Source: Vreelandella subglaciescola (lineage in GTDB: Bacteria > Pseudomonadota > Gammaproteobacteria > Pseudomonadales > Halomonadaceae). Taken from it: DNA of 64,000 nt. Below the pieces are notes generated by a model, which saw nothing but the letters and a program-made list of their open reading frames with translations, was not told the DNA's origin and did not search any database. Where the stretch lies: NCBI RefSeq assembly GCF_900142895.1, contig NZ_LT670847.1:2170001-2234000 (forward strand). Reading direction: 5' to 3'. Shown here one piece after another: positions 37,961 through 50,500 of the stretch (its first letter is position 1; each line of letters starts with the position of its first letter). The position numbers and the translations under genes were made by a program.

Positions 37961-40219
37961 ATGAGCGTAAGACGTTTCGTTGGAGCCAGCAGCCGCGAGG
38001 TTATGCGCCAGGTGCGCGATGCGCTCGGCGATGACGCGCTGATTGTCGCTAATCGCCGCACGGAAGGCGGCGTGGAAATTCTGGCCATGGCCGATGCGGC
38101 CGTCGCCGGGCTGGAGCCGGCTGCTGCCGCGCCCGAAAAGACCGCACCTGTCGCCGACCATTCCACCACGGATCATTTCAGCACGGAACATTCGACCAAG
38201 GACTATGCCCGGCTTCACCGCCAGGCCCGCGCCGCTCAGGAGGAAAAGTCCCCCGCGCCGGCCGATCCGATGGCCGCCATGAGCGAGCGGCTGCTCAAGG
38301 AAATGCAGGACATGCGCGAGCTGCTGGCCAGTGGCGTGGCAAGCGCCCCCGAGGGCTGGGCCGCGCGCCTGCGTCAGCTGCTGTTTGATATCGGCTTCAG
38401 CGGGGAAATCGCCAGCGAGCTGCTGGCCACGCTGCCGCCGGACATCGCCGCGCTGCCTGACGACAGCGATCAGCCGCTGGCCTGGCTGCGCGAGCAGCTG
38501 ATCAATAAGCTTGCCGTGCTGAACGAGGAAAACGCCTTTTTTGATCAGACCGGCATTGTCGCGCTGGTCGGCCCCACCGGCGTGGGCAAAACCACCACCA
38601 CGGCCAAGCTTGCCGCGCGGTTTGTCATGCGCCACGGCACCGAGCCGGTAGCGTTGGTGACCACGGACAGCTTTCGTATCGGCGCCCACGAGCAGCTGCG
38701 CATTTACGCCCGCCTGCTGGATATCCCCATGTTCGCGCTGGACGCCGAACAGTCCATTGACGAACTGCTGGCGCAGCTGGCCGACAAGCGCTGGGTGATT
38801 ATCGACACCGTCGGCATGAGCCAGCGGGATCAGCGCGTTATCGAACAGATCGCGCACCTGCAGGGCGGCCGCTCGCAGGTGCGCATGGCGCTGTTGCTCA
38901 ACGCCGCCAGCCAGCCCGAGACGCTGGAGGAAGTGGTGCTGCGCTATCGTCAGGCCGCCCGCGCCGCAGGAGCCGGGCTTGACGACTGCATCATCAGCAA
39001 GCAGGACGAAGCCGGCCGGCTGGCGCCGGTGCTGGATATCATCATGCGTCACGGTATGCGCGTGCTGTTTGGCTCCCACGGCCAGCGGGTGCCCGAAGAT
39101 ATGGCCCTGGCCAGCGCTCCGGCGCTGATAGCCCAGGCGCTGGACAGCGCCGCGCCCCGTGTTGTCGGAGGCGATTCGGCGCCGCCCGCCGCGATTCGGC
39201 TGCCGCGCTGGTCGCAGGACGTACTCGGGCAGGGGCGGCGGCTGTCCTCGCTGCTCGAACGTTTGCGCGCCCGGGTGGGTGGCTTTGACGCGCTGGAACG
39301 CTGCTGGGATCTGGCGGCGTTGCCCAAAGCGGTGCAAGAGCCGCGCCTTGAACAGCTGCTTGATGACTATCCACCGGCCGGTGCGGCGCTGGGCATGCGC
39401 TGGTCGGCGCGGCGCAACGAGCGCGGCTGCGACTGGGCGATGCCCGACGTCGGCCTTGATCCGGACGGCGCCACGCTGGCGCTGCCCTGGTTGCAGCATC
39501 GCCAACCCGCCGGCTGGCAGGCGCGGCTGGAAGCGCTGACCGAACACAACGGCATTGCCGTGCATCTGCTGCCGGCGCTGCCCGATGCGCCAGCGCGAGA
39601 CTGGCTGGAAGAAGGGCGGCTGACCTGGGTCAGCCAGGTCAGCGGCGCTCAGCGGGTCCACGCTGATGATCAGCGCACGACCCTGCGCAAGCTGTTCATG
39701 GAAAGCACGCTGACCCATCAGGTGGGCGTGCGGTTTCGCGCCCAGGCCATGCAGCTGTGGAATGTTTACGCTGAAGTGACCGACGACAACGGCACCGCCA
39801 TGCTGGCGTGGTACGGCGAAGTGCGCGACCCGGAAAGCGCCCGCACCGTGGTGCGCCGCTACTGGCTGACGCCGCGCCGGCTGGGCGTCGAGGCGCTGTC
39901 GCTGCTGCTCACCCAGCTTCAGGGCGAAGGCCTTGCACCGCTGACCAAGCGCGCGTTCCAGCAGATCAAGGAGGACGACGGCGGCGATGTCAGCGCCGAA
40001 GTGCGCCTGCTGATGGCCAGCGGCGCGGCGGCGGTGGTCGGCCATCTGGACGCCGGCGAAGACGACGAAGCGGCAATCTTGCGCCGCGAGCTGCTGGCAC
40101 TGCTTGGGTCCCGTCGGCGGCGGCGCGATACCGCGCTGCTGGATGCGTTGCTGTATGCGCTGATGGCGCGCGATGCCATTCGCCAGCTGGGTAGCGTCAG
40201 CCGGGAGGGCGTGGCGTGA
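37961..40219 (+). CDS. flhF: FlhF, SRP-type GTPase with long C-terminal extension
   Basis: FlhF is an SRP-like GTPase that sets the place and number of flagella. It begins VRRFVGASSREVMRQVRDAL, as the family does. The NG domain runs to about residue 398, with G1 GPTGVGKT (204-211), TTDSFRIGAHEQL (234-246), G3 DTVGMSQ (282-288) and G4-like SKQDE (346-350, often TKxDE). The product has 752 residues against the usual 400-500. Residues 399-752 have no match I recognise and contain no obvious membrane segment. The frame is open throughout and overlaps the next gene (GTGA), so it looks like a true fusion or extension. Confidence 0.9.
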   Translation: MSVRRFVGASSREVMRQVRDALGDDALIVANRRTEGGVEILAMADAAVAGLEPAAAAPEKTAPVADHSTTDHFSTEHSTKDYARLHRQARAAQEEKSPAPADPMAAMSERLLKEMQDMRELLASGVASAPEGWAARLRQLLFDIGFSGEIASELLATLPPDIAALPDDSDQPLAWLREQLINKLAVLNEENAFFDQTGIVALVGPTGVGKTTTTAKLAARFVMRHGTEPVALVTTDSFRIGAHEQLRIYARLLDIPMFALDAEQSIDELLAQLADKRWVIIDTVGMSQRDQRVIEQIAHLQGGRSQVRMALLLNAASQPETLEEVVLRYRQAARAAGAGLDDCIISKQDEAGRLAPVLDIIMRHGMRVLFGSHGQRVPEDMALASAPALIAQALDSAAPRVVGGDSAPPAAIRLPRWSQDVLGQGRRLSSLLERLRARVGGFDALERCWDLAALPKAVQEPRLEQLLDDYPPAGAALGMRWSARRNERGCDWAMPDVGLDPDGATLALPWLQHRQPAGWQARLEALTEHNGIAVHLLPALPDAPARDWLEEGRLTWVSQVSGAQRVHADDQRTTLRKLFMESTLTHQVGVRFRAQAMQLWNVYAEVTDDNGTAMLAWYGEVRDPESARTVVRRYWLTPRRLGVEALSLLLTQLQGEGLAPLTKRAFQQIKEDDGGDVSAEVRLLMASGAAAVVGHLDAGEDDEAAILRRELLALLGSRRRRRDTALLDALLYALMARDAIRQLGSVSREGVA

Positions 40220-40773
40220 GCAGCAAAACGACGGATCAGGCCGCCGGGCTGCGCCAATGGGCCAGCTTGCAGCGTCAACAACAGGCTGAAGACGGCGGGC
40301 ACGAGGCACTCATGCCAGCTACGCCGGCAGCCGAAGCGTCTTCAACTGCAGTGGCTCCAGCGGCGCCTCCGGTAGCGTCAACCCGGGCCAAAACCGTGCT
40401 GATGGTGGTCGGGCTGCCCGGCCGTGGCCCGCGCCAGGCAGAGCGCGTCAAGGCGCGCCTTGAGCAGTGGGCGGCGCTGGGCCGGCGCTGGGCGGGCACG
40501 CCGGACGCCTGGGATGTGCGTCTGGTGATGCCCGATGATCCGGCGCTGCCCCGTTTGGCGCGCGAGCATGCGCGCTGGGCGCTCTGGGTCGACAGCAGCG
40601 CCGATGCTTTTTCCGATACTTACCGCACGCTGTGCCAGCTGGCGCGCGGCGGCGGCCCACGGCGATTGCTGGCGCTGCACGAGCCGCACTTGCCACGCGC
40701 CGGTTTGCTGGATAATTTACATGATGCGGCTCATGCTTACGTGGGGATAGAACTGCTTATTCTGGCTCAGTAG
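40216..40773 (+). CDS. Unknown protein in the flhG position
   Basis: The 185-residue product starts with GTG overlapping the flhF stop. In polar flagellates the gene after flhF is flhG, a MinD-like ATPase. Here residues 1-55 are low complexity and the rest reads AKTVLMVVGLPGRGPRQAER, then WALWVDSSADAFSDTYRTLC and GGGPRRLLALHEP. The pattern faintly recalls the C-terminal half of MinD/FlhG, but there is no KGGxGKT Walker A motif. It may be a degenerate FlhG remnant or an unrelated FlhF partner. Function unknown; the gene is clearly part of the flhF unit. Confidence 0.75.
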   Translation: MSSKTTDQAAGLRQWASLQRQQQAEDGGHEALMPATPAAEASSTAVAPAAPPVASTRAKTVLMVVGLPGRGPRQAERVKARLEQWAALGRRWAGTPDAWDVRLVMPDDPALPRLAREHARWALWVDSSADAFSDTYRTLCQLARGGGPRRLLALHEPHLPRAGLLDNLHDAAHAYVGIELLILAQ

Positions 40774-40827
40774 GTGCAAGCCCAAGAGAGATGCAAGCAT
40801 CGGGTCGGCGAGCAAGGAGAGCACTTC

Positions 40828-41232
40828 ATGCACTTGAAGCTGGCACGAGCTTTAATCGGCATCTGGCTGCTGCTGGCAGGGTTGCCCGCAGCGTTTGCAG
40901 CCACTGGCAGCTGGGTCGCCTCGGTGCCGGGCACCATGGTGGCGATGAGCGATCGCCCGGGCGCGTCGCAAAACGCCGTACCGCCTTCGGGTAACGCCAC
41001 CGGCCGCGCGATAGAGCGCGTGCAATGGCGCTTTTCGCCCCCCGCCGGCAAGGCCGTGGAGGCCTGGCTATGTCATCCGCAAGGCTGCCTGGCGCTGGCG
41101 CAGCAACGCGGCACGACCCGGGCGTTTGCCGGCTATCGTGCCGATGTGCCGCTGCACTTTCGCTTTCGCTTGCCGTCCGGGCAACGGCCTTTTCGCGTGA
41201 CGGGGTTGCAGGTCATCGTTAACTATCAATGA
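40828..41232 (+). CDS. flhE: FlhE, periplasmic flagellar protein
   Basis: FlhE is a periplasmic protein of flhBAE operons, thought to limit proton leak or chaperone in the periplasm. The ATG at 40828 has AAGGAG 9-14 bases upstream and starts a clear signal peptide (MHLKLARALIGIWLLLAGLP, then AAFA). The product has 134 residues. The mature part has the family features GSWVASVPGTMVAMSDR, a Cys pair in LCHPQGC and the C-terminus LQVIVNYQ. In enterics flhE follows flhA; here flhF and an unknown gene are in between. Confidence 0.88.
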   Translation: MHLKLARALIGIWLLLAGLPAAFAATGSWVASVPGTMVAMSDRPGASQNAVPPSGNATGRAIERVQWRFSPPAGKAVEAWLCHPQGCLALAQQRGTTRAFAGYRADVPLHFRFRLPSGQRPFRVTGLQVIVNYQ

Positions 41233-41280
41233 TGTGGACGGAATCCAGGCAATACGTATCAAGGGCTTTGAGGCGAGTCG

Positions 41281-41985
41281 ATGTATACAGCACAGGGCAG
41301 ATACAAACAGCAGGATCAGCTGGGTCAATACATGCCGCTGGTCAGACGTCAGGCGCTGAGCCTGCAGGTCAGGCTACCGGCAAGCATCGAGCTTGATGAT
41401 CTGATACAGGCCGGCACTGTCGGCCTGTTGGAGGCGCTGGGTCGCTTTGACGCCACCCAAGGAGCAAGCTTTGCCACGTTCGCCAGCCAGCGGATTCGCG
41501 GTGCGATGATGGATGAGTTGCGCACTCGCGACTGGCTGCCGCGCAGCGTGCGCCGGGCGGCACGCTCGATGGATGACGCGGTGCGTCGGCTCGAACAGCG
41601 GTTGGGCCGCGCGCCCGACGAGGCCGAGATTGCCGCCGCGTTGGATATGCCGCTGGCCGACTATCAACAGCTGCTGCACGACACCAACAGCGGCTATCTG
41701 CTGCCCTACGAAGAACTGGCGGTGGATACCGGCGAGCCGGCCGGCGGTGGTGGGAGCATCGGCCTGCCGTTTGAGGAGCTGCTCAGCCATCAGCAGCGCG
41801 CCGGGCTGACGGCCGCCATCGAAGCACTGCCCGACCGTGAAAAGCTGCTGATGGCGCTGTATTACCAGGAAGAGCTGAACCTCAAGGAAGTCGGGGCGGT
41901 ACTCGGCGTGACCGAGTCCCGCGTCTCCCAGCTGCACAGTCAGGCGGTCAGCCGCCTGCGCGCCAAACTGCACGACCCGGCTTAG
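41281..41985 (+). CDS. fliA: FliA, flagellar sigma-28 factor
   Basis: FliA directs RNA polymerase to class 3 flagellar promoters. The product has 234 residues: region 2 with LDDLIQAGTVGLLEALGRFD and FATFASQRIRGAMMDELRTR, then DWLPRSVRR, region 3, and region 4 with ALYYQEELNLKEVGAVLGVT and ESRVSQLHSQAVSRLR. Three matching promoters are seen in this window, before flgK, fliS and motA. The anti-sigma gene flgM is not in the window. Confidence 0.97.
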   Translation: MYTAQGRYKQQDQLGQYMPLVRRQALSLQVRLPASIELDDLIQAGTVGLLEALGRFDATQGASFATFASQRIRGAMMDELRTRDWLPRSVRRAARSMDDAVRRLEQRLGRAPDEAEIAAALDMPLADYQQLLHDTNSGYLLPYEELAVDTGEPAGGGGSIGLPFEELLSHQQRAGLTAAIEALPDREKLLMALYYQEELNLKEVGAVLGVTESRVSQLHSQAVSRLRAKLHDPA

Positions 41986-42074
41986 CCCTGTCGAGGAATA
42001 GCCGGCCGTGCAATGTATGCCAGCGTGCCCCGCGCACGCGTTTTGATCTTCAAGTACCCGGCGAGGAGCCGTCG

Positions 42075-42875
42075 ATGAATCCTTCAACGCTGATTGGCAT
42101 AGCTGCCAGCATTGTACTGCTGGTAAGTGTGCTGTTTTTCACCGCAGAATCCCCCGAAAGTTTTATTAACCTGCCGGGGTTTGCCATCGTCATCACCGGC
42201 ACGCTGGCGGCAACGTTTATCAGCTACCCGCTGCGCGAAGTGCTGCGCGTGGTGCGCCTGGTGGCGGTGGTGTTCCGGCGCGAAAACACCTACGTGCGCG
42301 ATGACATCAAAGAGCTGGTGGATATGTCGCGGCTGTGGTTCAAGGGTGACGTGCGCGCGGTGGAGGAGCAGCTGCAGTACACCCGCAACCCGTTTTTGCG
42401 CTCGGGCATCCAGCTGGTGATTGCCAACACCAAGGAACAGGAAATTTTCGACATGCTGCGCTGGCGCATCGCCCGGCTGAAAGCCCGGGAACACGCCGAA
42501 GCGCAGATTTTCCGCACCATGGCGACCTATGCGCCGGCGTTCGGCATGATCGGGACGCTAGTGGGGCTGGTCAACATGCTGGAAGTCATGGACGCCGGTG
42601 ATCTGGACGTCATCGGCCCGCGCATGGCCGTGGCACTGCTGACCACTTTCTACGGCATTTTGCTGTCCAACCTGATTTTCAAACCCATCGCGGTCAAGCT
42701 TGAACGGCGCACCGAAGAGCGGCTGATCACCATGAACATGGTGCTCGAAGGGATTTCGCTGATCACCAAGCGCCGCCTGCCGTCGTTTATCGAAGAAACG
42801 CTGAACTCCTTTGTAGCCGACTATCACGACGAAATCCGCGACCCCGGAATGAAAGCCCAGACCCAGAAGGAATAG
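42075..42875 (+). CDS. motC: Second stator A subunit (MotC/PomA-like)
   Basis: The 266-residue product is a MotA/TolQ/ExbB-family protein with four predicted membrane segments. The signature APAFGMIGTLVGLVNMLEVM, then IGPRMAVALLTTFYGILLSN, is closer to the PomA/MotC group than to the MotA at 23723. It starts at ATG 42075 behind GGCGAGGAGC and is followed after 5 bases by a MotB-like gene. fliA followed by motCD recalls the pseudomonad cluster. A second stator could use a different ion or serve swarming, but the ion cannot be read from sequence alone here. Confidence 0.9.
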   Translation: MNPSTLIGIAASIVLLVSVLFFTAESPESFINLPGFAIVITGTLAATFISYPLREVLRVVRLVAVVFRRENTYVRDDIKELVDMSRLWFKGDVRAVEEQLQYTRNPFLRSGIQLVIANTKEQEIFDMLRWRIARLKAREHAEAQIFRTMATYAPAFGMIGTLVGLVNMLEVMDAGDLDVIGPRMAVALLTTFYGILLSNLIFKPIAVKLERRTEERLITMNMVLEGISLITKRRLPSFIEETLNSFVADYHDEIRDPGMKAQTQKE

Positions 42876-42880
42876 CGACC

Positions 42881-43573
42881 ATGCTGGATCGTGATACACA
42901 GCGCACACTCGAAGCGTCGCCCGTCAGCGGCGGCGATGAGGAAAGCTGGCTGACCAGCTATCTGGACGTGCTGACGCTGTTGATCACGCTGTTCGTGCTG
43001 CTGCTGGCGCTGACCCCGCCCGGCGGCGGTGAAGACCGGGATACCCAGCGTCGGCACACCGCAAGCGCTATGCCGACGCTGTCGCTGGCTTCGCTGGCCA
43101 CCGGCATCAAGCCGCGTCATAGCGGCCTGAGCCCGGCTTTTGCCGGCCTGAGCATCCCCGGCGTTGACGTTAGCGAGGGCCGTGAAGGCGTGACTTTGCG
43201 GATCGACGACAGCCTGCTGTTTTCCAGCGGGCGGGCGCAGCTTACCGATCAGGGGCGCGGAGTGGTGGCAAGCCTGGGCGAGGTGCTGGGGTCCTTCGAT
43301 GGCCAGATCTCGATTGAGGGCCATACCGATAACGTGCCCATTGCCACGGTGCGCTTTCCCTCGAACTGGGAGCTTTCCGCCGCACGCGCCATTGCCGTGC
43401 TGCGCTATCTGAAAACCCGGGGGCTGGCGGTCACGCACATGCGCGCCGTGGGCTACGCCGATACCCAACCCATGCAGAATAACGCCACGCCGGACGGCCG
43501 CGCCGCCAACCGGCGCGTTGAGCTGGTGCTGCGCAAGCCCTCAGGGCCGGGAAGCGCGACGGCAAGCCTGTAG
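42881..43573 (+). CDS. motD: Second stator B subunit (MotD/MotB-like)
   Basis: The 230-residue product has one membrane segment at about 24-44 (WLTSYLDVLTLLITLFVLLL) with Asp29 as the likely ion-binding residue, and a C-terminal OmpA-like peptidoglycan-binding domain (ISIEGHTDNVPIATVRFPSN, then WELSAARAIAVLRYL). It is shorter than the MotB at 24589. It pairs with the upstream PomA-like gene. Its last 33 bases overlap the 3' end of a convergent gene. Confidence 0.92.
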   Translation: MLDRDTQRTLEASPVSGGDEESWLTSYLDVLTLLITLFVLLLALTPPGGGEDRDTQRRHTASAMPTLSLASLATGIKPRHSGLSPAFAGLSIPGVDVSEGREGVTLRIDDSLLFSSGRAQLTDQGRGVVASLGEVLGSFDGQISIEGHTDNVPIATVRFPSNWELSAARAIAVLRYLKTRGLAVTHMRAVGYADTQPMQNNATPDGRAANRRVELVLRKPSGPGSATASL

Positions 43574-44161
43574 CGTTTTGTCAATGGCGTCGTCCGCGCC
43601 GTCCAGGCTGAAGATCATGTACCAGGGCTCGTCTGCGCCCTGCTCAAAGCCGAGGAATATCTGCTCTCCGGCATGCATGTCGTCCAGCAGGCTGTCTGCA
43701 TCGTTCAAGTAGAAATGTGCGTAAAAGCCGTTGTTTTCCGGCTCGGTAAAAAACTCGGCCACGGCGGTGTGCAGCGTTTTGTCATCCACCCGTAGCCGCG
43801 CCGGTACGGTAGCCACCGTTTGCTCTTCCCCCTCCAGCGTCACCCGCATCTCCAGCCAGGGCATATCGCACACGCCGGGCGTGGCGTTGACGCTTAGAGT
43901 GGCATCGGCATAGCTTGTGCTTTCCACGGCGCGGAAATGGCGCTCGCCGCTCTCGAACTCAGCCCCCTTCTCAGCCCCGTTCTCAACCCCTCGCGCAGCG
44001 CCCCGCGAAAGCGTGACCGACTGCCAGTCGTCGTGCTGCACGGCATCGCTTACGTCAAACGACGCTGCCTGCTCCGCCCCGGCGATTAACGTACCGACCA
44101 TCAGCGCAGCGACGGTCAGCCCCCGTGTCTTGAGTGTTGCCTGCTTTCTGCGTTGCCCCAT
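43541..44161 (-). CDS. Secreted protein of unknown function
   Basis: The product has 206 residues with a Sec signal peptide (KTRGLTVAALMVGTLIAGAE) and a mature part of mixed beta character, including two cysteines (GVCDMPW and LQACRRA). I recognise no family. It overlaps motD by 33 bases tail to tail. No ribosome binding site stands out. Upstream lies the nrdJ control region on the other strand. Coding is supported by the signal peptide and by codon use like its neighbours. Confidence 0.65.
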   Translation of the reverse strand: MGQRRKQATLKTRGLTVAALMVGTLIAGAEQAASFDVSDAVQHDDWQSVTLSRGAARGVENGAEKGAEFESGERHFRAVESTSYADATLSVNATPGVCDMPWLEMRVTLEGEEQTVATVPARLRVDDKTLHTAVAEFFTEPENNGFYAHFYLNDADSLLDDMHAGEQIFLGFEQGADEPWYMIFSLDGADDAIDKTLQACRRASRP

Positions 44162-44302
44162 TGCCCTTGCTGCCTGTGTTGTCGTGTGAGTCTGGTTCAG
44201 GCGTCGGTTTCCGCGCCTGCGATGAGATAGCGGGACAAGCCTATAACGCGGCGCGTCAGGACAAAAGCCAAGCGATTGTTTTGTCGGGCGATATTTCCAA
44301 AA

Positions 44303-44349
44303 TACCTATATGTGGTAGTAAGTAGGTAATAAAATAGCTTATATAGTTA
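44303..44349 (+). promoter_or_regulatory. Candidate NrdR box pair and promoter upstream of nrdJ
   Basis: Two 16-base sites, TACCTATATGTGGTAG at 44303-44318 and ATAGCTTATATAGTTA at 44334-44349, partly match the NrdR box (ACACWATATATWGTGT, about 9-10 of 16 each). They are 15 bases apart, the three-turn spacing known for NrdR box pairs. The second overlaps a possible -35 (TTATAT at 44339) of a promoter with -10 TATACT at 44362-44367. The region is much more AT-rich than its surroundings. Confidence 0.55.
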
Positions 44350-44440
44350 TCGGGGCGCGGCTATACTTCACCGCGCTACACCTTATATCGCCCGCCATTC
44401 GGACCCACCCTGACTCCCCACGGGGAAGGAGTATTGCGCC

Positions 44441-47400
44441 ATGAGTACTGCTGCCAAGGCTGTTACAACATCCAACGATGTGCCGCTGCAGGTACCTTCG
44501 CGGGAAATCTGGGATGCCAAATACCGCCTCAAGGATCGTCACGGCGTGCCGGTAGACGCCGATGTAAATGCCACCTTCGAGCGGGTCGCGCGGACACTTT
44601 CCGCGGTAGAAGGCGACGCGGCCAGCCACTGGCTACCCAAGTTTCGCTGGGCGCTTGCCAACGGCGCGGTACCCGCCGGGCGGATTCTCTCCAACGCCGG
44701 CGCAGAGGCCTACAAGCCGGCGGTGAGTTTGATCAACTGCACCGTGTCGCGCACCATCCGCGACTCCATGCGCGATATTCTGGATTCCGTGGTCGACGCC
44801 GGCATGACGCTGAAATCCGGCGCCGGCATCGGCTATGACTTTTCCACGCTGCGCCACAAGGGCGCGTTCGTATTTGGCGCTGGTGCGGGCACCAACGGCC
44901 CGCTGGCGTTCATGGATATCTACGACAAGATGTGCTTCACCGTCGCCTCGGCCGGTGGGCGGCGCGGCGCGCAGATGGGTACCTTCGACGTCGGCCATCC
45001 CGACGTGCGCGAGTTTATTCAGGCCAAGCGCGAAGCCGGCCGCCTGCGCCAGTTCAACCTGAGCCTGTTGATCACCGACGAGTTCATGGAAGCGGTCAAG
45101 CAAGGCGCTGACTGGCCGCTGGCATTTCCGCTGCATCCCGGCGAAAAAGACGATGTTCAGGCCGAGGATCTCATCTACCGTGACTGGCCGGTTATCGAAG
45201 ACGGCTACAGCGTGGACGGCGAAGGCCGCGTGGCTTGCCGTATCGTTGAGGTGGTTCGCGCCCGCGAGCTGTGGGACACCATCATGGCCTCCACCTACGA
45301 CTACGCCGAGCCGGGCTTTATCCTGATCGATCAGGTCAACCGTATGAACAACAACTGGTTCTGCGAAGACATCCGCGCGACCAACCCCTGCGTCACGGCG
45401 GATACGCGGCTGCATACCCAGTTCGGTCAGGTGCCGATTGGCGAGCTGTATCAGCGGGGCGAAGCGCTGCGGGTCAGCGTCGATAAAAGGGCGTTGGACA
45501 CGGGCGATAAGGGCACCGAAACGCGCCCGGCCGTCGCGGTGTTCAAGACCGCCGATCAGGCTGACGTCTATCGCGTGACGACCCGCGAGGGCTATGAAAT
45601 AAAGGCGACGGAGTGGCACGACTTTTATACCCAGCGAGGAAAAATTCCGCTGAAGGAGGTAAAGGTCGGGGATCAGCTCTGGGTGCAGTCGGGTAAAGGC
45701 CAGTTTGGCCCCGAAGGTAACGCGAAGCTGGGCACCTTGCTCGGGCTTATTGCCGGCGATGGTCATTTCACAAATCGCGGGAAGGGCAATGAAGCCGTGA
45801 GCGTCAACTTCTGGGGCGCGGATCGGACACTTGCCGCCGCGACGGCCGAATACGTCAACGAGTTGATCGCCCACTCCGCTAAAAACGGCCGTCAATGCCA
45901 GGTGGCGCCGGTCGCCGTCGCCGAGCGTCAACATGTGTTTATCCGCTCGGTCATTCTGGCACGGCTGCTGGAGCATTACGGCTTTACCAAGAATACCAAG
46001 CTCAAGGTTCCCGAAGTGGTCTGGCGCGGCAGCGAGGCTTGCGTCAAGGGCTACCTGCGCGGCTTATTTCAGGCGGATGGTACGGTACAGCGCGATGACA
46101 AGAATGCTTATTGCACGATTCGCTTGGCATCAGGTGAGCCGCAACTGCTTAAAGATGTGCAGATGCTACTCAGTAACATGGGTATCTTCTGTCGAATTTT
46201 GAAGCGCCGTAATGCGGGTAAGAGATGGCTTCCGGATGGGCGCGGTGGCCAGAAGGCGTATCAGTGTAAAGCCGATCATGAACTACTGATTGGATCAGAT
46301 TCGCGAGACCGTTTCATGCAGGAAATCGGTTTCCTGACTGATACCAAGAATCAGAAGTATCAGGAGTGGCATAGCATGCGTTCGAGCGCCGTCAAAACGT
46401 CTTATACGACGACGGTAAAATCGATTGAATATATAGGGCGCGAGGCCGTTTTTGACACGACGCAAAATGATAAAAATAATCTAATTTTCAATGGGTTAGT
46501 GACAGGTAATTGCGGTGAGCAGCCATTACCGCCGGAGGGCGCCTGCCTGCTGGGGTCGATCAATCTGACGCGCTTTGTGATCGAGCCGTTTGGTGAGGCG
46601 CCGCGGTTTGACTGGGAGCGCTACCGTGAAGTCGTGGCGATCTTCACCCGCATGCTGGATAACGTGGTGGAAATCGCCGGCCTGCCGCTGCCCGAGCAGC
46701 AGCGCGAGATTGAAGCCAAGCGCCGCCATGGCATGGGATTTTTGGGGCTGGGCTCGACGATGACCATGCTCAGGATTCCCTACGGCTCGCAAGCGTCGCT
46801 TGAGTTCACCGAGGAAGTCAGCCGTCACCTGGCCATCGAAGGCTGGAAGCAGGCGCTTGAGCTTTCCCGCGAAAAGGGCATGGCGCCGGTGCTCGAGGAA
46901 GAGCATACGCTGACACCCAAGATGCTGCGCGAACGCCCGCAGCTGAAAAAAGACGGCTATGAGGTCGGCGACAAGGTGCCCGGGCGCATTCTTCACGCGC
47001 GCTATAGCGCCTACATGAAAAAAGTTGCCGCGCTCGAGCCTGAGCTGGTCAGCGCGCTGGCCGAGCACGGCGCGCGCTTTACCCATCACAGCTCGATTGC
47101 GCCCACCGGCACGATCTCGCTGTCCATGGGCAATAACGCCTCCAACGGCATTGAGCCGTCGTTTTCGCACCGTTACTACCGCAACGTCATCCAGACCGGT
47201 AAAAAGACCAAGGAACAGGTGGAAGTGGTCTCGTTCGAGCTGGCCGCCTACCGCCACTTCATCACCGCCGACGCAGTGGAAAGCGATCTGCCGGATTATT
47301 TCATCACCGCCGACAGCGTCACACCCGAGCAGCACGTCGCCGTGCAGGCCGCCGCCCAGCAGTGGGTGGACTCGGCCATTTCGAAAACGGTCAACGTGCC

Positions 47401-47674
47401 CACTGAGTTCCCCTTCGAGCAGTTTCAAGACCTGTACCTCCAGGCTTACGAAAGCCGCCTGAAGGGCTGCACGACCTTCCGCTTCAACCCCGAAGCGTTT
47501 CAAGGCGTGCTGGTACGCGAAGACGACCTGAAAAATACCACCTACGAGTTCGAGCTGGAAAACGGCGAAACCGTTGCGCTCAAAGGCAATGAAACGGTGC
47601 TTTACGACGGCGAGGAACACAACGCTGCCAACCTGTTTGATGCGCTGAAAGAAGGCACCTATGGCAAGTGGTAA
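44441..47674 (+). CDS. nrdJ: NrdJ, class II (B12-dependent) ribonucleotide reductase, with intein
   Basis: NrdJ makes deoxyribonucleotides using adenosylcobalamin and works with or without oxygen. The open frame encodes 1077 residues; removing the intein (317-690) leaves 703, a normal size for this enzyme. The extein shows SLINCTVSRTIRDSMRDILD, GGRRGAQMGTFDVGHPDVRE, the interrupted NP/CGEQPLPPEGACLLGSINL active-site loop, HHSSIAPTGTISLSMGNN, and GCTTFRFNPEAF near the end. AAGGAG lies 9-14 bases before the ATG. The downstream nrdJb supplies the remaining C-terminal part, as in the split NrdJa/NrdJb of Pseudomonas aeruginosa. Confidence 0.95.
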   Translation: MSTAAKAVTTSNDVPLQVPSREIWDAKYRLKDRHGVPVDADVNATFERVARTLSAVEGDAASHWLPKFRWALANGAVPAGRILSNAGAEAYKPAVSLINCTVSRTIRDSMRDILDSVVDAGMTLKSGAGIGYDFSTLRHKGAFVFGAGAGTNGPLAFMDIYDKMCFTVASAGGRRGAQMGTFDVGHPDVREFIQAKREAGRLRQFNLSLLITDEFMEAVKQGADWPLAFPLHPGEKDDVQAEDLIYRDWPVIEDGYSVDGEGRVACRIVEVVRARELWDTIMASTYDYAEPGFILIDQVNRMNNNWFCEDIRATNPCVTADTRLHTQFGQVPIGELYQRGEALRVSVDKRALDTGDKGTETRPAVAVFKTADQADVYRVTTREGYEIKATEWHDFYTQRGKIPLKEVKVGDQLWVQSGKGQFGPEGNAKLGTLLGLIAGDGHFTNRGKGNEAVSVNFWGADRTLAAATAEYVNELIAHSAKNGRQCQVAPVAVAERQHVFIRSVILARLLEHYGFTKNTKLKVPEVVWRGSEACVKGYLRGLFQADGTVQRDDKNAYCTIRLASGEPQLLKDVQMLLSNMGIFCRILKRRNAGKRWLPDGRGGQKAYQCKADHELLIGSDSRDRFMQEIGFLTDTKNQKYQEWHSMRSSAVKTSYTTTVKSIEYIGREAVFDTTQNDKNNLIFNGLVTGNCGEQPLPPEGACLLGSINLTRFVIEPFGEAPRFDWERYREVVAIFTRMLDNVVEIAGLPLPEQQREIEAKRRHGMGFLGLGSTMTMLRIPYGSQASLEFTEEVSRHLAIEGWKQALELSREKGMAPVLEEEHTLTPKMLRERPQLKKDGYEVGDKVPGRILHARYSAYMKKVAALEPELVSALAEHGARFTHHSSIAPTGTISLSMGNNASNGIEPSFSHRYYRNVIQTGKKTKEQVEVVSFELAAYRHFITADAVESDLPDYFITADSVTPEQHVAVQAAAQQWVDSAISKTVNVPTEFPFEQFQDLYLQAYESRLKGCTTFRFNPEAFQGVLVREDDLKNTTYEFELENGETVALKGNETVLYDGEEHNAANLFDALKEGTYGKW
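45389..46510 (+). mobile_element. Intein with LAGLIDADG homing endonuclease inside NrdJ
   Basis: The 374-residue insertion splits the NPCGEQPL motif. It begins with Cys317 (block A, CVTADTRLHTQFGQVPIGEL), has block B with TEWH at 390-393, two LAGLIDADG motifs (LLGLIAGDG 433-441 and LRGLFQADG 539-547, both acidic residues kept), and ends FNGLVTGN before the +1 Cys691. The last residue Asn690 is present, but the penultimate residue is Gly where His is usual, and the block F His is replaced (NDKNNLIFNG). The reading frame is intact. Base use toward the 3' end (about 46180-46510) is more AT-rich than nrdJ, a sign of transfer. Confidence 0.93.
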
Positions 47675-47724
47675 GCAGGGCGTTATGACTTTGTCCGTTA
47701 ATCCAGATTTTGTGGGGGAGCATC

Positions 47725-48498
47725 ATGGCCGTTGAAATTACTTCAAAAATTGTCGGTTATCGCATCAAGCCGGACGCCGCGCCAGAACCTGAGCCGGCCT
47801 TGCAGGACGAAAACCCGCTGACGCTACGGATTGCGTCGCGCCCCGAAGGCACGCTGGAAGCCGTCTCAGAGAAAATCTCCTATGTCGGCGCGGAAGGCCG
47901 CAAAAAAGTCTATTTGCTGGTGTCGTTCATGCCGGTGGAAGGCGTGGTGGGCGGCAAGCGCGTGGTGATCGAGCGCCCGGTAGAGTTTTTCTTCCCCTCG
48001 GGCCAGCTCTCAAGCGAACACCAGTGGATCACCGCGACCATGCGCAGCCTGTCGCTGGCCGCCCGGGGCGGCTACGCCACCCAGGCGGTGGCGGATTTGC
48101 GTAAGGTAGCGTGGGATAAAGGCCTGGTGCGTTGCGGCTGGAACCGCCACGGCAAGCCGGTGTTTCACGACTCCGAAGTGGCGGCGATCGCCTGGTCGAT
48201 CCAGCAGATTCTCTATCGTCGCGGCTTTCTGGATCAGGACGGCCATCAGGTGCCGGTGGAAGCGCTGGTCGAGCGCTACGCTCACCGCATGACCCACGGC
48301 CATGCCTGGCAGCCGCCTGCTGAAGATGCCGAGGCGCCGGTGGCGGACCCATTAGAGCCGAGTGACGGCGCCGACAAAAAATCGGCGGGAGCAGGCCCCG
48401 CCGTGGTGGGCCACTGCCCCGAATGTCGCGGTGAGCTGATAATGATGGACGGCTGCCCCACCTGTTACGCCGGCTGCGGCTGGTCGAAGTGCGGCTAA
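47725..48498 (+). CDS. nrdJb: NrdJb, C-terminal subunit of class II ribonucleotide reductase
   Basis: In Pseudomonas aeruginosa class II reductase is split into NrdJa and NrdJb, and this gene fits the second part. The ATG at 47725 has GGGGGAG 5-11 bases upstream; a TTG at 47710 is less likely. The product has 257 residues with a conserved N-terminal part (VEITSKIVGYRIKPDAAPEP) and a Cys-rich end (CPECRGEL, then CPTCYAGCGWSKCG) that probably holds the cysteines reducing the active site and may bind zinc. It lies 50 bases after nrdJ and is followed by a terminator. Confidence 0.9.
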   Translation: MAVEITSKIVGYRIKPDAAPEPEPALQDENPLTLRIASRPEGTLEAVSEKISYVGAEGRKKVYLLVSFMPVEGVVGGKRVVIERPVEFFFPSGQLSSEHQWITATMRSLSLAARGGYATQAVADLRKVAWDKGLVRCGWNRHGKPVFHDSEVAAIAWSIQQILYRRGFLDQDGHQVPVEALVERYAHRMTHGHAWQPPAEDAEAPVADPLEPSDGADKKSAGAGPAVVGHCPECRGELIMMDGCPTCYAGCGWSKCG

Positions 48499-48519
48499 CG
48501 CGTTAATCTCTGCGTTCTT

Positions 48520-48551
48520 TTCCCCTCGCCCCGGCGGGGGGAAGCTTTTTT
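48520..48551 (+). terminator. Intrinsic terminator after nrdJ-nrdJb
   Basis: TTCCCCTCGCC and GGCGGGGGGAA form an 11-bp stem (one G-U pair), with a T-run at 48546-48551 following. It lies 22 bases after the nrdJb stop. Confidence 0.88.
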
Positions 48552-48583
48552 ACCCCCTGAGTCCGCGCCGGCCCGAGCGATGA

Positions 48584-49555
48584 ATGCAACGATTACCCCA
48601 CCTGGCCCGAGTGTTTCTGCTTCCCTTTCTGCTGGTTTCCCCGTGGCTGGCGGCGGATACCCTGTGGCTTGAAAACGGCGATCGTGTGACCGGCACGATA
48701 GTGGACAAGACGTCGGCGCGCTGGCGTATAGACACCGACTACGCCGGCGAGATCGAGATCGACGCCCGGCGGGTCGAGCGCGTAGCGCTTGACGAGCCGC
48801 CGTCGCCCAGCGTCAAGGCGATGAACGCGCTGGGCTTTGCCGTCCAGCCCAAGCCGCCCAGACCCGAACCGGCCGGGGATGACGCCGCCGCGTCGCCGAC
48901 CGAGCGCCCGTTCAACGCCACCGGCGGCGTAGACGTGGCCTTCGAGTACGAGCACAGCACCGCCGATACCCGAGAGCTGGAGCTTGATCTGCGCCAACGC
49001 TTAGAGGTGGGGGCTTGGCGGCATAAATGGCAGGCCAGCTATCACCGCGAATATCGCGATGGCAAGCGGCGTGAAAACGACTGGCATCTGGCGTACTCGC
49101 CCGAGCGATTTTTCTCTGAGCGGCATTTTTGGCAGGGGCGTGTCAGCACCAACCGAGATTGGAACGAAGCGCTTGAGCGGCGTTTTTCCGTTGGCGTGGG
49201 GCCGGGTTACCAGCTGTGGGATAACGAACGCGGGGCATTTTCGCTGTCGGCATTGCTCACGCGCAACCGCTATCAGTACGCCGATCAGCCCGATGACAAC
49301 TTCCAGACCGGCGTGCTGCAGTGGCAGTTTAATCGCTACCTGTGGGCAGACCTGCTGGAGCTTTACGCCAACGGCCGCGCGGGCCGTGCGCTTTCCCAGG
49401 CCACCAGTTTTTTGCTCGACGCGGAAACCGGCATGCGCTACCCGCTGACCGACTGGGCCTCGCTGCAGATGTCGGTGGAAACCGACTGGGTCGAAAACAG
49501 CGCCGAAGACCTGAGCGACACCACCTATAACGTGGGTATCGGCCTAAACTGGTAG
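48584..49555 (+). CDS. DUF481 family outer-membrane protein
   Basis: The 323-residue product has a signal peptide (RVFLLPFLLVSPWLAA) followed by TLWLENGDRVTGTIVDKTSA, the N-terminal module common in this family, and a C-terminal half of about 200 residues with alternating beta strands ending in Trp (NVGIGLNW), typical of an outer-membrane barrel. The family's role is not known; E. coli YdiY is a relative. The start lies 33 bases after the nrdJb terminator. Its last 12 bases overlap the 3' end of the convergent LysR gene. Confidence 0.85.
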   Translation: MQRLPHLARVFLLPFLLVSPWLAADTLWLENGDRVTGTIVDKTSARWRIDTDYAGEIEIDARRVERVALDEPPSPSVKAMNALGFAVQPKPPRPEPAGDDAAASPTERPFNATGGVDVAFEYEHSTADTRELELDLRQRLEVGAWRHKWQASYHREYRDGKRRENDWHLAYSPERFFSERHFWQGRVSTNRDWNEALERRFSVGVGPGYQLWDNERGAFSLSALLTRNRYQYADQPDDNFQTGVLQWQFNRYLWADLLELYANGRAGRALSQATSFLLDAETGMRYPLTDWASLQMSVETDWVENSAEDLSDTTYNVGIGLNW

Positions 49556-50500
49556 CCCCGGGCGCTGGCTGAGCGTGCGGTGGCGCGCTTTCAGGCCGTC
49601 AAACAGGGCGTGGCGCAGCCAGCGGTGGCCGGCATCGGCGTGGTGGCGCTCGTGCCACACCAGCCAGTAGGCAAAGGAGGGTACCGCAAGCGGCAGCCGG
49701 CGCAGGGCCAGTGGCCAGTGGTCGGCCACGCTGGCCGCCAGGCAGCCCGGTACGCAGAGCAGCAAATCGCTGTGCTGGGTGGCGGAAAAACCGGCGAGAA
49801 AATGCGGCTGGCGCAGGCTCACCCGGCGTTTCAACCCGCGTTTGGCCAGCGCCAGATCCACCGCCCCGCGATCATCCCCGCCCATACTGATCAGTTGATG
49901 GTCGGCGTGCAAAAACGCCTCCAGGGTAAAGTCTGCCTCCGGCTGCAGCGCCAGCGGATGATCCTCACGCATCACGCAAACAAAGTGATCATGGCCGACT
50001 TCACGGCCGTGCACGCTGGCCGGCACCCGCTCGCCGGGCACGCACAGCGCCAGCTCCGGCCCGCCTTCATCCAGCTGCTGCTCGACTTCCCCGCTGCCGG
50101 ACTGCACGTCCAGGCGCATATGCGGCGCCTGATGCTTCACGGTTTGCCACTGCGGCGCGAGGAAGGCGTGCATGCCATAGTCGGTGGTGGCGATGTGAAA
50201 ACGGCGCGTGGTGCTCGCCGGGTCAAACTCGGGCGGTGCCAGCAGCGCGCCGAGTTCTTCCAGCAGCCGGGAAAGCGGCGGCCCCAACGCCTGTGCCCGC
50301 GCCGTGGGACGCAGGCCGCGGTGGGTACGGACAAACAGCGGGTCGTCAAAGGCCTGACGCAGCCGTGAAAGCGTGCGCGATACCGCCGGCTGGCTCAGGT
50401 TTAACCGCTGGGCGGCGCGGGTCACACTGCGCGAATCCAGCAGGGCGTGCAGGGTCACCAGCGCGTTGAGATCGTGGCGAGCCAGGTCGGCAAGGTGCAT
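49544..50500 (-). CDS. LysR family transcriptional regulator
   Basis: The 318-residue product has an N-terminal winged helix-turn-helix (LNALVTLHALLDSRSVTRAA, then LNLSQPAVSRTLSRLRQAFD and DPLFVRTHRGLRPTARA) and a C-terminal effector-binding domain from about 95. The NodD/SyrM-like start (HDLNALVTL) places it in a known LysR subgroup. It is divergent from the oxidoreductase at 50684, 183 bases away, so it probably regulates that gene. The inducer is unknown. Confidence 0.93.
   Translation of the reverse strand: MHLADLARHDLNALVTLHALLDSRSVTRAAQRLNLSQPAVSRTLSRLRQAFDDPLFVRTHRGLRPTARAQALGPPLSRLLEELGALLAPPEFDPASTTRRFHIATTDYGMHAFLAPQWQTVKHQAPHMRLDVQSGSGEVEQQLDEGGPELALCVPGERVPASVHGREVGHDHFVCVMREDHPLALQPEADFTLEAFLHADHQLISMGGDDRGAVDLALAKRGLKRRVSLRQPHFLAGFSATQHSDLLLCVPGCLAASVADHWPLALRRLPLAVPSFAYWLVWHERHHADAGHRWLRHALFDGLKARHRTLSQRPGLPV

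Follow-up and report, generated by a model that had tools for sequence, protein, structure and literature searches.

The nrdJ gene of Vreelandella subglaciescola very probably carries a class 1 homing intein at the catalytic cysteine of its class II ribonucleotide reductase, with a 3' part that resembles an exchangeable cassette. The gene was studied in a 64,000-nucleotide stretch of the genome (contig NZ_LT670847.1, positions 2,170,001 to 2,234,000), which we call the window; coordinates below are window positions, and all features lie on the + strand. The precursor open reading frame (ORF) occupies 44441..47674, encodes 1077 residues including the intein, matches PF02867, and passes the NCBIfam equivalog profile NrdJ_Z (TIGR02504; 528.3 bits for the whole ORF against a cut-off of 399.95). 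A sequence-only reading had placed an in-frame intein of 374 residues at 45389..46510, interrupting NP/CGEQPL, and translation of the ORF together with splicing profiles bore this out to the exact codon. The 1122 nucleotides (CVTADT...FNGLVTGN) run in frame and free of stops from the first Cys (TGC, 45389-45391) to the last Asn (AAT, 46508-46510). Before them, the N-extein (44441..45388) ends in ...EDIRATNP, with N315 and P316 last and the -1 Pro codon at 45386..45388; after them, the C-extein (46511..47671, CGEQPLPP...) begins with C691-G692-E693, the +1 TGC being 46511-46513. The intein passed Pfam Intein_splicing (PF14890; 51.4 bits, cut-off 35.8), NCBIfam intein_Nterm (TIGR01445; 52.2 bits, cut-off 24.5), and Pfam LAGLIDADG_3 (PF14528; 80.4 bits, cut-off 22.5), and a PF14890 search of the 3.1-Mb genome gave a single matching place, the nrdJ intein.

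In an alignment with T. maritima NrdJ (structure 1xje), the +1 residue, Cys691 of the precursor (codon 46511..46513), falls on Cys322, which we take to be the thiyl-radical residue. The sequence-only reading had equated the +1 Cys with the radical Cys; its position is upheld by this alignment. The intein thus splits the conserved Asn-Pro from the catalytic Cys. Judging from this anatomy, that Cys would double as the +1 splicing nucleophile, and the active-site loop would be broken in the precursor, leaving the reductase inactive before splicing. Splicing would join NP to the Cys, so that one residue would take part first in splicing, as nucleophile, and later in catalysis, as carrier of the radical. 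The genome also encodes the class I enzymes NrdA and NrdB; with these the cell may do without NrdJ, whose activity is probably non-essential in air.

To place this intein among its relatives, three protein searches (1347, 903, and 437 matches) were made and the best 120 matches of each were studied; in the first, which returned 1347 relatives of the intein, scoring was confined to the 7996 candidates with the most words in common. A genome scan gave 130 loci, of which the best 80 were studied, mostly gamma- and betaproteobacterial with one Opitutaceae metagenome-assembled genome, and a viral scan gave six phage contigs (L130-L135) with family inteins that were 36-46% identical. In all, 307 distinct inteins, the window's included, were compared; 13 of 264 proteins were left out because the intein could not be cut. 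The C-terminal residue was Asn in 142 of these and Gln in 165, but the 903-match search selects Gln-type cassettes and the 437-match search Asn-type, so these totals say nothing about natural frequencies.

The two terminal residues mark two versions of the 3' part. The C-terminal residue was fully predicted by the states at positions 234-236, 241, 302, 303, and 365 (0.82 bits, the whole entropy of the Asn/Gln label; n = 79), while mean label information over residues 1-220 was 0.02-0.08 bits per 20-residue block. Not one of the 307 distinct inteins mixed the two sets of states found at 302, 365, and 374. A tree of residues 1-229 needed 17 label changes, of which starred branches force 11 or more, against a shuffled mean of 18.0 (164 of 500 shuffles as low), and a tree of residues 244-372 from which the linked columns had been removed needed 3 against 17.9 (0 of 500 as low). 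The extein tree resembled the former, with 15 changes against 16.9 (82 of 500; n = 72). The 79 rows used for linkage and for the 5' and 3' trees omit G005, G014, G069, L071, L117, and the phage rows L130-L135; the whole-intein tree (80 rows) also omits L073 and keeps L130 and L131, and extein distances and the extein tree used the 72 of the 79 rows with both flanks. All were quick trees with support from the Shimodaira-Hasegawa-like approximate likelihood ratio test (SH-aLRT) only. In 30-residue segments up to residue 225, between-type distance exceeded within-type distance by 1-5%, slightly above all 200 shuffles in some of them; the excess rose to 58-99% in two segments over 211-255 and stayed at 10-40% to the end of the intein. 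Correlations of distances were less telling: extein distances correlated with those of the 5' part at r = 0.35-0.37 and with those of the 3' part at 0.15-0.20 (n = 72). By these comparisons the intein is a mosaic in which residues from about 230 to 374 are one of two old cassettes, with Asn or Gln ends, that have been swapped several times onto resident 5' parts and are spread nearly at random over 5' parts and hosts.

Close pairs of sequences place the edges of the exchanged tract. Halomonas smyrnensis (Asn) and H. getboli (Gln) share about 90% codon identity in the N-extein, intein residues 1-228, and the C-extein, but differ throughout the block 229-374; at identical residues, codon identity was 92 and 91% before the block and 37 and 47% within it, and a two-edge fit put the edges at residues 229 and 374 (log-likelihood gain, 126). 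Among 58 close pairs, a left edge within 220-235 was found in 13 of 29 Asn/Gln pairs and in 0 of 29 same-type pairs. A model of the 1077-residue precursor was not used since its reductase part was poor (predicted local distance difference test score below 50 at 108-181 and, around the C-extein junction, at 691-702). In the intein-only model that was used instead, the second LAGLIDADG helix comprises residues 216-230, and the cassette begins where this helix gives way to strands. It covers the strands of the second endonuclease half and the C-terminal splicing strands, and ends at the last intein residue; from the fold, the strands 3' of the helix would be expected to touch DNA.

The window itself carries a trace of the same edges, one that does not depend on trees. 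GC content at third codon positions (GC3) was 77.8% in the N-extein, 73.8% in intein residues 1-229 (45389..46075; overall GC 60.8%), 49.7% in residues 230-374 (46076..46510; overall GC 46.7%), and 78.0% in the C-extein. The first of these intein segments takes in the N-terminal splicing part together with the first endonuclease half and extends over most of the second LAGLIDADG helix; the second segment is the Asn-type cassette. Best change points over the ORF fell at residues 226 and 380, with intervals of two log-likelihood units of 222-239 and 373-384, and coincide with the cassette inferred from relatives. The log-likelihood gain was 23.2, while the best of 20 shuffles reached 10.1; the shuffles were scanned on a 3-codon grid, so their maxima come out slightly low. 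The best-fitting tract (46064..46528) thus runs from intein residue 226 to the sixth C-extein codon; it possibly includes up to six C-extein codons, and its interval also includes none. A recent AT-richer donor of the cassette would be the simplest reading. Among the matches listed, the nearest cassettes were those of P0002 (94%) and P0003 (83%), followed by those of H. smyrnensis and P0004 at 78% and by several, including Methylotuvimicrobium, at 74%. Within the first six C-extein codons, CCA TTA (46523-46528) is shared by the window, V. jeotgali, and H. getboli, and is present in 0 of 26 intein-free genomes and in none of four other Halomonadaceae carriers compared; it is a possible co-conversion mark.

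Several observations weigh against the mosaic as described. Sixteen of the 29 Asn/Gln pairs lack a left edge in 220-235, and 5 of these 16 involve L078, whose C-extein is abruptly divergent far downstream in every pair; the 58 pairs stem from few independent events, mainly in Halomonas and Methylococcales. For the window and V. jeotgali, the best tract runs from -8 to 367, nearly the whole intein, and their 5' parts have themselves diverged. The whole-intein tree needs only 6 label changes, 5 of them forced (n = 80), and the 3' tree was built from 116 columns. Distances measured over the second endonuclease half follow those measured over the C-terminal splicing part at r = 0.42, no better than either set follows the 5' parts (0.34-0.43), so the case for their joint travel rests on the linked states rather than on distances; correlation between adjacent segments is as low at 250 (0.14) as at 230 (0.17). 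A GC3 drop of more than 10 points occurs in 3 of 12 intein-bearing genes (the window, H. smyrnensis, and the Gln-type V. jeotgali), and the two low-GC3 blocks in Vreelandella may come from a shared cause other than recent foreign origin. Target-site nucleotides are not tracked by cassette type: over 72 flanking nucleotides we found two weak signals (-15 and +6), no more than chance, and this independence counts against a switch of half-site specificity. Finally, the linkage has an exception among distant relatives: the phage intein L131 ends in Asn and carries the Gln-type pair at 302-303.

The phage inteins also bear on a reading without recombination, in which Asn and Gln ends arose repeatedly by point mutation and the linked residues followed for functional reasons. 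The pairings L365/N374 and V365/Q374 hold in all four distant phage inteins aligned, as would be expected if these positions were functionally coupled. Since 302-303 are uncoupled in L131, the pattern suggests a functional tie between 365 and 374, and common inheritance as what links the endonuclease residues. Against the reading stand the fall in codon identity at identical residues from 92% to 37% at the same edge, the compositional shift of the window there, and the separation of Asn from Gln types by unlinked 3' columns, and we regard repeated point mutation as very improbable.

The exchange of cassettes could have come about in more than one way. An incoming endonuclease of the other cassette type could break DNA near the 3' junction of the intein, after which repair would start copying in the C-extein and proceed leftward until it met sequence that again matches well, in the second LAGLIDADG helix; a break at that place, repaired from a donor of the other cassette, predicts the right edge. 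We hold this account tentatively, and consider it equally likely that the two cassettes are old alleles kept together in populations (a trans-species polymorphism) and swapped by ordinary homologous recombination in conserved flanks, with no endonuclease required; each is a serious candidate that falls short of being probable. The reason for rating them alike is that V. jeotgali, which has the Gln type, also has an AT-rich cassette, and AT-rich cassettes of both types in Vreelandella are what long co-residence might give. Ordinary recombination would also explain the lack of hybrids, as the types are too different inside the block to recombine easily there and are well matched at residues 205-233 and in the C-extein. 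It fits less well with the window cassette, where a long-resident allele might have lost the difference between a GC3 of 50% and the 74-78% around it, and with the best-resolved pair, in which both edges are tight (229 and 374) where less sharp ones would be predicted. A further idea, which we consider unlikely, is that the cassettes are competing half-elements, each made up of one endonuclease half and the C-terminal splicing residue; each nuclease would cut alleles in which the other cassette is already present, and an already filled site would thus be invaded by half an intein. A silent second cassette with shufflon-like switching was also considered and is unsupported, with one intein place each in the window's genome and in G069.

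The intein is a dispensable insertion within its genus. We searched for nrdJ alleles in 58 genomes, the window's own and 57 relatives, of which 37 (own included) belong to one genus. Twenty-nine of the 37 have nrdJ, and the remaining 8 gave no nrdJ match except a weak one to class I. The sequence-only reading had proposed a comparison with intein-free alleles in related strains, and these are common: 26 of the 29 run unbroken from NP to CGEQPL, so the insert is no normal part of all related NrdJ proteins, and 3 carry an intein (the window, G005, and G014). One further genome, G069, was taken to be the same as locus L052 of V. jeotgali on finding a 60-base piece of its nrdJ locus there, and by this match the genus appears to include V. 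jeotgali. In an intein search of 82 genus genomes, the window type was found in the window and G069 (74% identical). Four others (G005, G014, G066, and G091) hold a second intein at the same NP|CGEQPL site, of 373-377 residues and 27-32% identical to the window type, with a canonical HN end and, in both copies inspected (G005 and G014), LAGLIDADG-like motifs. This second intein is an independent occupant, so the nrdJ site is held by two unrelated intein lineages within one genus. Two other loci deserve mention. L041 (genome G074) has a second-type HN intein at the nrdJ site with stop codons and frame changes, in an assembly (86% complete, 6% contamination) that makes decay and sequencing error indistinguishable, and L030 (G016, 89% complete) is one of the 26 intein-free nrdJ alleles, with a frame that breaks shortly 3' of NPCGEQPL.

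Both endonuclease motifs reported in the sequence-only reading, with their acidic residues, were recovered: LLGLIAGDG at 45737..45763 (D124) and LRGLFQADG at 46055..46081 (D230), the exchanged tract's left edge lying within or just after the latter. Each of the two acids is kept in 306 of the 307 distinct inteins. Strong purifying selection (nonsynonymous divergence, dN, far below synonymous divergence, dS) was found in both endonuclease parts in 13 pairs of close relatives, the window being in none. Because the acids are kept and relatives are under purifying selection, the endonuclease is probably maintained, and it would be predicted to cut intein-free nrdJ and so drive homing.

The splicing residues are more unusual. 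The window intein has the terminal residues of class 1 (C1, N374, and the +1 Cys) and keeps the block B TxxH (TEWH, 45608..45619) and block F Asp; across the family, T74 and H77 are kept in 307 of 307 distinct inteins, and C1, D5, T74, H77, and D356 together in 265 of 265. On these features it is placed in class 1, as an intein that bears an endonuclease and whose family appears to target the catalytic-Cys codon of NrdJ. In a survey of 90 rows (86 loci plus the window, G069, G005, and G014), +1 was Cys in all 90 and -1 was Pro in 88, the other two being Leu in phages L134 and L135. Those two phage inteins sit at an NL|CSE site that looks like another reductase type, and inteins may use the catalytic-Cys position across reductase types. 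The penultimate His, usual in inteins but not defining for them, is replaced by Gly (Gly373) in the window and by Gly or Ala in all 307 distinct inteins; at the block F His position, 300 of the 307 have Asn and 7 have His. Splicing with a C-terminal Gln and splicing without the penultimate His have both reportedly been described.

These residues may hamper splicing. Work on NrdJ-1 reports that Pro at -1 disrupts the first acyl shift (PMC13123727), and with this Pro and with the two usual assisting histidines missing (penultimate and block F), splicing of the window intein might be slow. Slowness could serve regulation: in this reading, splicing would be made slow or redox-sensitive by the -1 Pro, the lack of both histidines, and the use of the catalytic Cys at +1, and the intein would be a switch that releases NrdJ only under suitable conditions. 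The near constancy of the -1 Pro and of the penultimate Gly or Ala across the family agrees with it, as do the fallback offered by NrdA and NrdB and the Aquifex aeolicus R2 intein between metal ligands, where the spliced enzyme has higher iron loading and activity (PMC8772380). A switch of this kind is nevertheless improbable, given that 26 of 29 nrdJ-bearing genomes of the genus are intein-free and that purifying selection on the endonuclease in relatives fits a homing element rather than a domesticated switch. That the insert is a dead or non-splicing remnant that silences nrdJ has only the unusual -1 and penultimate residues in its favor, and it is hardly credible beside the open frame, the five invariant residues, and the low dN relative to dS in relatives.

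Comparison with published systems separates what is known here from what appears new. An intein in nrdJa of Azotobacter chroococcum NCIMB 8003 has been published (Achr_580, residues 321-690; PMC4465626), and by its description it is like the window intein in host gene, position, and LAGLIDADG_3 type; the catalytic Cys, the -1 Pro, the Asn/Gln ends, and the mosaic are absent from the passage that describes it (PMC4465626). The R. fulvus copy of the family is 62% identical to the window intein and has the identical insertion site. The intein itself belongs to a known kind, probably to this published nrdJa family, and its placement is likewise not new, as inteins at catalytic sites are a known pattern. 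The A. aeolicus NrdB (R2) intein likewise splits a ribonucleotide reductase active site, but in the small subunit and between two metal ligands instead of at the radical Cys (PMC8772380). NrdJ-1 (8ubs; PMC13123727), in contrast, is a split intein inserted one residue downstream, between exteins NPC and SEI with a +1 Ser, and is reported not to tolerate a Pro at -1, which is native in the window family. PI-PfuI (1dq3) is 19% identical to the window intein and has 454 residues. The nearest analogue we found for the cassette swap is the Torulaspora WHO elements, in which homing replaces the 3' end of a gene; they are yeast elements without protein splicing that target FBA1, and the window family shows the replacement pattern only (PMC7282813). 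Phage T5orf172 homing endonucleases likewise exchange DNA-binding and nuclease parts naturally, but belong to a different nuclease family and have no link to a splicing residue (PMC10448857).

In the excerpts of openly licensed literature that were searched, no account was found for this site of a -1 Pro across the family or of mosaic inteins, though such accounts may exist, and an Asn/Gln dimorphism linked to half an endonuclease and repeatedly exchanged was not met there. The family-wide -1 Pro with a replaced penultimate His and the two-version mosaic of the 3' cassette are thus apparently new. If the cassette picture holds, the family offers a natural series of inteins whose 5' halves are nearly alike but whose ends are either Asn or Gln, all working next to a -1 Pro and lacking the penultimate His. 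Such a series would give direct access to the question of how splicing deals with a junction rejected by a well-studied laboratory intein, which may be useful for protein ligation at Pro-Cys. The picture also suggests a piecewise renewal of homing elements, one endonuclease half each time, at a target that the host can hardly mutate because the site encodes the catalytic Cys. Homing by half-elements, if true, would be a further kind beside whole inteins, introns, and WHO elements, and one that operates within an intein and switches the splicing terminus between Asn and Gln.

Directly 3' of nrdJ, a small ORF (47725..48498) with a Cys-rich C terminus (CPEC...CPTC) gave a weak match to the C-terminal end of PRK08665, a model of one-piece B12-dependent reductases (27.6 bits, below the cut-off of 961). 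Together with nrdJ it probably forms a two-gene class II reductase, NrdJa/NrdJb, of which it would be the NrdJb-like second subunit. An Rfam scan of positions 40000-50000 at gathering thresholds gave zero matches, and so does not point to a B12 riboswitch in the vicinity of nrdJ. Distantly similar inteins (L042-L049) occur elsewhere in the genus, in what by the look of the sequence appears to be a DnaB helicase gene. Several listed relatives of about 1500 residues, P0018, P0020, P0035, P0045, and P0050 among others, have room for a second NrdJ intein; in these five the additional length is upstream of the studied site, and in P0062 and P0079 it is downstream.
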